Shown one piece after another: positions 25,064 to 26,313 of a stretch of 64,000 bases of DNA. The position numbers and the translations under genes are program-made. Each line of letters starts with the position of its first letter. Positions within the stretch are counted from its first letter, which is position 1. The notes under the pieces are model-generated. The model was not told the origin of the DNA. It was given only the letters and a program-made list of their open reading frames with translations, and searched no databases. The stretch comes from Bacteroidia bacterium (GTDB lineage Bacteria > Bacteroidota > Bacteroidia > Chitinophagales > JAUHXS01). The DNA is taken from the NCBI GenBank assembly GCA_030426955.1, contig JAUHXS010000003.1, positions 186,001 through 250,000 on the forward strand, in the 5' to 3' direction.

Positions 25064-25099
25064 GATTCAGTGTTTAAAATTATCCTTTATGGAATAGCA

Positions 25100-25146
25100 A
25101 TTTACCGTGAAAATCCACATTTATATTGTGGATTTTCACGGTAAAT
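25100..25146. repeat. Perfect 20-bp inverted repeat overlapping the ATPase promoter
   Basis: The left arm 25100-25119 and right arm 25127-25146 are exact reverse complements (the left arm contains ACCGTGAAAATCC) around the 7-nt loop TTTATAT. The right arm lies between a TTG at 25126-25128 and the -7 box at 25150-25157 of the following gene. As the predicted transcript starts after the palindrome, it most likely acts as DNA, that is, an operator for a dimeric or tetrameric protein. Confidence 0.93.
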
Positions 25147-25149
25147 GAC

Positions 25150-25157
25150 TATATTTG
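25150..25157 (+). promoter_or_regulatory. Leaderless promoter of the AAA/DUF4143 ATPase (TATATTTG)
   Basis: TATATTTG matches TAnnTTTG exactly and is followed after 4 bp by the ATG at 25162, so transcription should begin at or very near the start codon. A TTG at 25126-25128 stands 21 bp upstream as a possible -33 box, at the tip of the palindrome. Confidence 0.65.
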
Positions 25158-25161
25158 TTTT

Positions 25162-26313
25162 ATGATAACAAGGCAAAAGAAAGCTGATATCCTTAAATCT
25201 TTGAGTCATTTTCCTGCTGTCGGGATAATAGGTCCTAGGCAATGTGGCAAAACTACTTTAGCAAAAGAAGTTCTGTCCGATACACAAGATGACTTCATCT
25301 ATCTAGATTTAGAGTCAAAGAGAGACACCAGTATCTTAAACGATCCTGAGCTCTTTTTTGGCAACAATCTAGAAAAAACTATTATCATAGATGAAATACA
25401 AGTTCAACCTGATTTATTCCCAATTTTAAGATCATCGATTGACCAACACAGAGTTCCTAGTAGATTTATCATATTAGGTTCTTCATCGCCACAACTACTT
25501 CGGCACTCTAATGAGTCTTTAGCAGGAAGAATAAGCTATCATGAGCTCACGCCACTAAATATTACCGAAATAGAAGATTTTCGAAAGCATCTTCTGTTTG
25601 GAGGCTATCCTGAATGTTATTTGCAGAAAGATGAAACCATTATTTCTGAATGGCTTTCCAACTATATTAACTCTTATGTAGAGAGAGAATTGCCTGCTCT
25701 TGGGTTGAAGACAAGCGCCACAAATATCTTCAAGCTTTGGAGGATGATCGCATCTATCCATGGCAATCTGTTAAATATTGACCAATTGTCTAGATCACTA
25801 GGAGTAAGTGCCACTAGTATTAGAAATTATTTAGACTTCATGGAAGAGGCATTTCTAATTCGAAGATTAACGCCCTATCATTTCAATATAAAAAAACGCT
25901 TAGTTAAAGCACCTAAAGTTTACGTTCGAGATTCTGGTATTTTAAACTATATGCTAGGACTAGAAAGTTATGAATCATTAGAACTCAATGCTATGCTTGG
26001 TGCAATTTGGGAAGGCTATGTTATAGAGCAGATTTACAGTAGTTTGCCACAAAATAAAAGTATGCATTTTTATCGCACACACCATGGTAGTGAGATAGAT
26101 TTATTGATATCTCAGGGGATTAATCCTCAGTATGCTATTGAGATTAAATACAGTAGCGCTCCTAAATTAACACAAGGTTTTTATAATGCATTAGAAGACA
26201 TTGGCATTAAAAAAGGATTTGTCATCGTTCCTGAAGATGTGCATTACCAACTGAATGAACAAGTTGAAGTTATAGGCTTGCCTAAGTTTGTTCAGGAGTA
26301 CATGAAAATATAA
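25162..26313 (+). CDS. AAA-type ATPase with DUF4143 domain
   Basis: A 383-residue protein. I place the start at MITRQKKADILKSLSHFP because the family begins this way and the longer frame starts inside the palindrome. Residues 24-31 are the P-loop GPRQCGKT, residues 74-78 the Walker B IIIDE, and LGSSSPQLL near residue 110 the sensor. The C-terminal DUF4143 part contains SYVERELP and a PD-(D/E)xK-like stretch (GSEIDLLIS ... YAIEIKYS). This COG1373-type family is widespread, often in many copies per genome, and has no settled function; the nuclease-like tail suggests a mobile or defence-related role, which is inference. It interrupts a run of secreted-protein genes. Confidence 0.88.
   Translation: MITRQKKADILKSLSHFPAVGIIGPRQCGKTTLAKEVLSDTQDDFIYLDLESKRDTSILNDPELFFGNNLEKTIIIDEIQVQPDLFPILRSSIDQHRVPSRFIILGSSSPQLLRHSNESLAGRISYHELTPLNITEIEDFRKHLLFGGYPECYLQKDETIISEWLSNYINSYVERELPALGLKTSATNIFKLWRMIASIHGNLLNIDQLSRSLGVSATSIRNYLDFMEEAFLIRRLTPYHFNIKKRLVKAPKVYVRDSGILNYMLGLESYESLELNAMLGAIWEGYVIEQIYSSLPQNKSMHFYRTHHGSEIDLLISQGINPQYAIEIKYSSAPKLTQGFYNALEDIGIKKGFVIVPEDVHYQLNEQVEVIGLPKFVQEYMKI

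Follow-up and report, generated by a model that had tools for sequence, protein, structure and literature searches.

Self-regulating operators are well known from the C proteins of restriction-modification systems, from antitoxins and from the lambdoid repressors. The winged helix of STAND proteins is commonly regarded as a regulatory part. To our knowledge, the PDC-S01/COG1373 genes, with tens of thousands of copies reported in Bacteria and Archaea, have no settled function. According to one paper (PMC12988326), PDC-S01 ranks fourth among the commonest prokaryotic defences and consists of an ATPase joined to a PD-(D/E)XK-family domain, and most PDCs still await experimental validation. In the searchable literature we found no description of a cognate promoter palindrome or of a recognition code for PDC-S01.

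The locus examined here lies in a window of 64 kb (the whole stretch of DNA that was analysed) and contains an AAA_14/DUF4143 ATPase gene of 383 aa on the forward strand (25162..26313). In Pfam the gene product scored 146.9 bits for DUF4143 (cut-off 28.1) and 93 bits for AAA_14 (cut-off 27), and in PADLOC, where PDC-S01 stands as a single-gene phage-defence candidate, the protein matched seven PDC-S01 models with a best E of 4.7e-86. An exact 20+20 bp palindrome had been described ahead of this gene in a sequence-only reading, and the repeat search and the sequence confirmed it: the two 20-bp arms, 25100-25119 and 25127-25146, are exact reverse complements around a 7-nt loop (25100..25146, a feature without strand), with a weaker extension to 25094-25152, the longer arms (25094-25119 and 25127-25152) agreeing at 92% over 26 bp. 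By our own estimate, the chance of such a palindrome in 64 kb is about 1e-5. The register of the operator was set by aligning about 190 family operators, most of which have a span of 37, and it places a 37-bp core at 25105..25141 on the forward strand, CCGTGAAAATCCACA-TTTATAT-TGTGGATTTTCACGG, in which base 3 is G and base 6 is A. No further copies of the half-site were found in the 64-kb window (0.08 matches expected per shuffle). When the 15-nt half-site was searched in the 3.4-Mb genome with up to two mismatches, the two window arms were the only exact copies and no other copy had fewer than two mismatches; the two-mismatch search of 395 genomes of the phylum gave chance-like matches and no common site, and the exact palindrome occurred 0 times in 2.9 million viral contigs, where exact matches only were sought.

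Relatives of the gene were gathered from the order, from named genomes of many phyla and from viral contigs. Used as a single-sequence query, the window protein found no matches in the viral contigs, and an alignment query found 29 relatives there, mostly distant. Equivalent palindromes upstream of related copies, for which the sequence-only reading had proposed a search, were present: 62% of the 149 relatives with a usable upstream region had a palindrome with a span of 36-38 bp and at least 12 of 15 positions paired, compared to 1.9% of 514 control ORFs at these loci and 1.8% of dinucleotide-shuffled sequences. Most palindromes span 37 bp, their arm sequences vary from gene to gene, and the consensus half-site reads C C N T G [A/C/T] A A A/T T N N N A A. 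About 10-20% of relatives lacked a clear palindrome at the expected place, partly through start-codon errors. An extra upstream copy of the palindrome was seen in 22 of 188 genes, mostly at 51-54, 76 or 87 bp, and a tandem second upstream operator was noted at L046, L080, L094, L103, L112, L124, L127, L235 and L274.

Between the window palindrome and the ATG (25162), the forward strand carries TATATTTG (25150..25157), a Bacteroidota-type -7 box that ends 4 nt before the start codon and points to a leaderless promoter, and a TTG within the palindrome (25126..25128, forward strand) would, from its sequence and spacing, occupy the expected -33 position. Across the family, the palindromes fall into two placement classes, with the right arm ending either 0 bp or about 20 bp upstream of the ATG. 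In the ~20-bp class, a TAnnTTTG box ends at most 12 nt from the ATG in 28 of 43 genes as against 5 of 104 control ORFs, and in 24 of the 43 the distance is exactly 4 nt. Where the right arm abuts the ATG, the box frequently falls within that arm. In several genes of Proteobacteria, both arms together form TTGCAA-(16-17)-CATAAT, which ends 6-8 nt before the ATG. As judged from these spacings, transcription would be leaderless and would start from a promoter covered or adjoined by the palindrome.

The source genome contains seven DUF4143 genes, and right next to the start codon of each stands a different repeat element, some of them recognised by eye. In the closest paralogue (43% identity), CCTTGAATATTGGAAATT/AAATTCCAAATTTCAAGG extend up to the ATG, a second DUF4143 subfamily has two copies of TTCGTYTTAAAACGAA upstream, and a third has three copies of a 31-bp unit. 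Since elements occur at all seven starts but differ in sequence, the element goes with the gene type, while its sequence is private to the copy. The seventh DUF4143 match (L012, G000:C7:29240-29581) is weak and its nuclease motif is apparently degenerate, yet its promoter carries the repeats AAGTCAAA/TTTGACTT. Relatives of the paralogue L008 show, by eye, two or three short palindromes, for example GGATTGTAATCC, TCGTTTTAAAACGA and GGTGAATATATTCACC, which run up to the ATG with a period of ~30-32 bp; L322-L351, L008 and L009 make up the second DUF4143 subfamily, in which two to three such short palindromes replace the single 37-bp site. Because this second subfamily also has promoter palindromes, private promoter operators seem to be general to DUF4143 genes, with an architecture apparently set by subfamily.

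The AlphaFold model of the ATPase (pLDDT 90.3) predicts a P-loop NTPase core and a winged helix in the STAND arrangement, with a recognition helix at residues 217-229. The best VIA fold matches were SSO1545 (2fna; Z 16.2 over 246 residues) and PABY2304 (2qen; Z 16.0 over 240), with an rmsd of 3.0, and lower-ranked matches included CED-4, NLR and AVAST5 filaments. The alignments span model residues 1 to about 266, that is, the ATPase and the winged helix; residues after about 297 were barely covered in the whole-protein fold search, which gave no match for the C-terminal domain. The Walker motifs are essentially invariant across the family, and the putative nuclease triad is conserved at 98.6% (D313), 98.1% (E327) and 100% (K329) in 213 sequences. 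The codons from Asp313 to Lys329 (D...ExK), the putative nuclease active site, lie at 26098..26148 on the forward strand. Residues 307-308 belong to the nuclease-like domain and form a loop that connects two strands and adjoins the conserved EID/ExK motif.

Operator bases were added as extra columns to the protein alignment of 188 genes, with an effective number of 144; near-duplicate loci among them were handled by weights and by identity limits for held-out genes (at most 90%, mostly 45-70%). Base 3 covaried with residue 308 at a robust z of 38.5, the next protein column reaching 5.3, and base 6 covaried with residue 307 (14.7). Four inner bases covaried with a different part of the protein: base 13 with residue 218 (18.7), base 12 with residue 217 (12.7), base 14 with residues 218 (12.5) and 216 (11.7), and base 11 with residues 217 (9.1) and 207 (8.4). 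On the forward strand, the codons for residues 216-218 (S-A-T), at the start of the winged-helix recognition helix, lie at 25807..25815, and those for His307-His308, in the loop of the PD-(D/E)XK-like domain, at 26080..26085. About one turn of the helix separates the inner bases (11-14) from the outer ones (3 and 6). Counted over arms, residue 308 and base 3 are paired in a chemically sensible table: D with C in 40/40, N with A in 28/28, Q with A in 16/16, H with G in 10/10 and A with T in 91/94. His307 was associated with A at base 6 with an odds ratio of 43 (P about 6e-44, per arm and with relatedness ignored). The window gene fits this code, having H308 with G and H307 with A. On the tree, base 3 changed at least 50 times, and of the 15 sister pairs with unlike bases at this position, 13 also had unlike residues at 308.

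The residue-308 rules (A, V or T to T; D to C; N or Q to A; H to G) were settled with the first set of genes and were then applied to a held-out set of 69 newly fetched loci, whose operators were located without the use of bases 3, 6 and 12-14. At confident sites the rule was correct for 84 of 84 arms, which come from 42 genes and are not independent within a gene, and over all held-out sites for 103 of 108 arms. By comparison, the best constant guess for base 3 would be right in about 38%, and the nearest training relative gave the correct base in 58 of the 84 arms. Where that relative had a different residue 308, the code was correct for 36 of 36 arms and the relative for 11 of 36; shared ancestry therefore does not explain the result. 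The rule from residue 218 to base 13 was correct for 80% at confident held-out sites compared to 62% for a constant guess, and the rule from residue 216 to base 14 showed no gain over a constant guess in the held-out genes. The codes for bases 12-14 thus predict only moderately.

Overall, the palindrome very probably serves as a switch at the DNA level, read by the protein of its own gene. As expected of an autoregulatory operator, it stands at the promoter of a gene and covaries with the putative DNA-binding residues of that gene's product. The explanation that we favour, and in which we place considerable confidence, is that the ATPase encoded downstream has the palindrome as its cognate DNA site and would bind its own promoter and thereby repress itself. 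Two proposals of the sequence-only reading gain support here, one being a role of the palindrome as DNA at a leaderless promoter, which agrees with the family-wide spacing of the box and with the covariation of operator and residues, the other being recognition of the site by the ATPase itself, to which the same covariation points. All of the evidence consists of sequence statistics, on the constant span, the position at the promoter, the symmetry of the arms, the code that predicts unseen genes and the conserved ATPase and nuclease motifs. It strongly supports binding of the ATPase to its own palindrome; binding as such, self-repression, a dimeric state and the release of the protein by its ATP state or by infection are what we infer beyond it. 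A symmetric, probably dimeric (or higher) assembly of the ATPase would sit on the 37-bp site, and in each arm the winged-helix recognition helix would read the inner bases 11-14, while the loop of the nuclease-like domain near the putative catalytic Asp would read the outer bases 3 and 6. Since the site covers or abuts the -33 and -7 elements, binding should exclude RNA polymerase, so that the gene would be kept low and self-limited, and since paralogues in one cell have different codes, each would control only itself. Against this explanation as it stands count the relatives without a clear palindrome, the moderate predictions for bases 12-14 and a nuclease triad that nearly all members preserve, which is more than a pure repressor needs; with both its ATPase and nuclease sites preserved, the protein may be at rest when it represses and act on DNA once switched.

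Other explanations of the palindrome have to be set against this self-read operator. That it acts as RNA, either as a hairpin in a 5' leader or as a terminator or attenuator, would suit the other placement class, in which the right arm abuts the ATG, and the palindrome copies found 3' of some genes (below) could make terminator hairpins. However, in the window gene and in most genes of the ~20-bp class, the palindrome lies upstream of a -7 box whose end is about 4 nt from the ATG, and would thus be outside the transcript; in addition, its arm bases covary with two putative DNA-contact regions of the encoded protein, which is not a hairpin effect, and we regard an RNA role as very improbable. 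Even less credible is a separate repressor shared by all DUF4143 genes and acting through their palindromes. The presence of a repeat element at the promoter of every copy would be in keeping with it, but the elements differ among the copies of one genome, and how they differ can be predicted from residues of the very protein encoded next to them. The factor shared among copies that the sequence-only reading had offered as one option is contradicted both by the seven distinct elements of the source genome and by the within-genome pairs of relatives, 0 of 36 of which share a 307/308 code. Avoidance of shared codes within genomes was considered and set aside, as 0/36 pairs versus 3-8% between genomes is too weak for such a claim. 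A further alternative takes the site to be mainly a cleavage target, in restriction or in self-versus-nonself discrimination, with the gene's own copy protected or cut under stress. It draws on the putative catalytic D313/E327/K329, conserved at 98-100%, on the position of the site-reading residues 307/308, 5-6 residues before D313, and on the listing of the family as a defence candidate in PADLOC. In contrast, its own site, if unprotected, would be lethal, no obvious partner methylase adjoins the gene, a location at the promoter would be unnecessary for such a role, and the exact window palindrome is absent from the viral contigs (a weak point, exact matches only); we consider it improbable.

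A different role is suggested by palindromes found away from the promoter. A second palindrome of the same specificity follows the stop codon by 0-68 bp in 23 of 188 genes (L048, L055, L056, L060, L065, L067, L069, L075, L081, L088, L096, L239-L242, L248, L249, L254, L259, L267, L272, L273 and L279), 22 of these within 31 bp, whereas random operators used as a control gave 4 downstream hits; in L075 and L239 it is identical. No matching palindromes were found inside the 188 genes. For near-identical copies located in different contexts, the alignment runs from the edge of the palindrome to just beyond the stop codon (L227/L228 from -52 to +13 at 94% nt, L188/L189 from -39 to +6 at 86%, L225/L229 from -69 to +30), and in about a dozen records of rhizobial plasmid homologues the homology starts with the outer edge of the palindrome. 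Solo, intergenic palindromes of the family type without an intact gene also occur (L360, L361, L362, L363/L364, L365, L366 and L367), of which L363/L364 is conserved between two genomes of one genus, and weak matches to gene remnants lie beside L361 (residues 347-380) and L362 (residues 4-25); one pattern search with a span of 38-40 recovered both operators and solo sites. At L312 (G750:C19), copies of the 3' end of a neighbouring ABC-transporter gene, one intact and one degenerate, flank the gene unit and resemble a long flanking duplication. As side observations, the gene adjoins a site-specific integrase in several Rhizobium/Agrobacterium plasmids (L316, L317 and L320), L317 also contains a fragment of a second copy, and at L311 508-1222 (G678:C2) a pair that by eye is of HicAB toxin-antitoxin type lies between the ABC gene and the ATPase unit.

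From these data, the gene may travel as a palindrome-bounded cassette, with the palindrome as the end of a minimal mobile unit that the ATPase-nuclease would read in order to move or excise it, repression being a by-product. The 3' palindromes and their absence from gene interiors, the homology that stops at the palindrome and the stop codon or begins at the outer palindrome edge, the solo sites with two remnants beside them and the flanked unit of G750 all fit such a cassette. However, no clean insertion with target duplication was found at the loci examined: the search for empty sites in the genera of G851 and G678 gave rearranged or duplicated flanks, and genomes without the unit at the G678/G750 locus had no palindrome there. 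The R. ruizarguesonis plasmids that at first seemed empty still contain the palindrome together with the initial 60 bp of the gene and are thus decayed copies. Moreover, most genes lack a 3' palindrome, the window gene included, so that it does not have the matching ends of an insertion-sequence-like element; placement at the promoter with strong positioning relative to the start codon indicates regulation; and conserved operators within fast-diverging flanks could likewise yield sharp boundaries. Mobility therefore stays a rival explanation, unlikely on balance. We give similarly limited credence to the broader proposal that the PDC-S01 family consists in part of minimal selfish cassettes, each of one gene and one or two 37-bp palindromes that, read by its nuclease-ATPase through a simple residue-base code, would serve both as an immunity-type operator and as an end for cutting, copying or excision, with solo palindromes left behind.

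The self-read operator that we favour would provide the first readable DNA code for one of the commonest phage-defence candidates, read across nearly 200 related genes from many bacterial phyla. It indicates what each PDC-S01/COG1373 protein would bind, making the DNA target predictable from the sequence of any member, and it suggests that the nuclease-domain loop shares in the reading of the sequence. The code lets cross-regulation among co-resident copies be predicted, the signs of a cassette bear on whether PDC-S01 should be counted as defence at all, and the function of these genes becomes open to cheap tests, namely binding, specificity swap, derepression and cleavage.

Compared with the STAND ATPases SSO1545 and PABY2304, the likeness of the window protein lies in the ATPase and winged-helix part; unlike in STAND proteins as usually regarded, the winged helix here covaries with DNA. 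Like the C proteins, the antitoxins and the lambdoid repressors, the window family has its own palindrome over its own promoter and a specificity that diverges among co-resident relatives. In contrast to all of these, its predicted reader is a STAND ATPase that would use a loop of a catalytic-type nuclease domain together with a winged helix, its site has a span of 37 bp, and the whole forms a single-gene unit.
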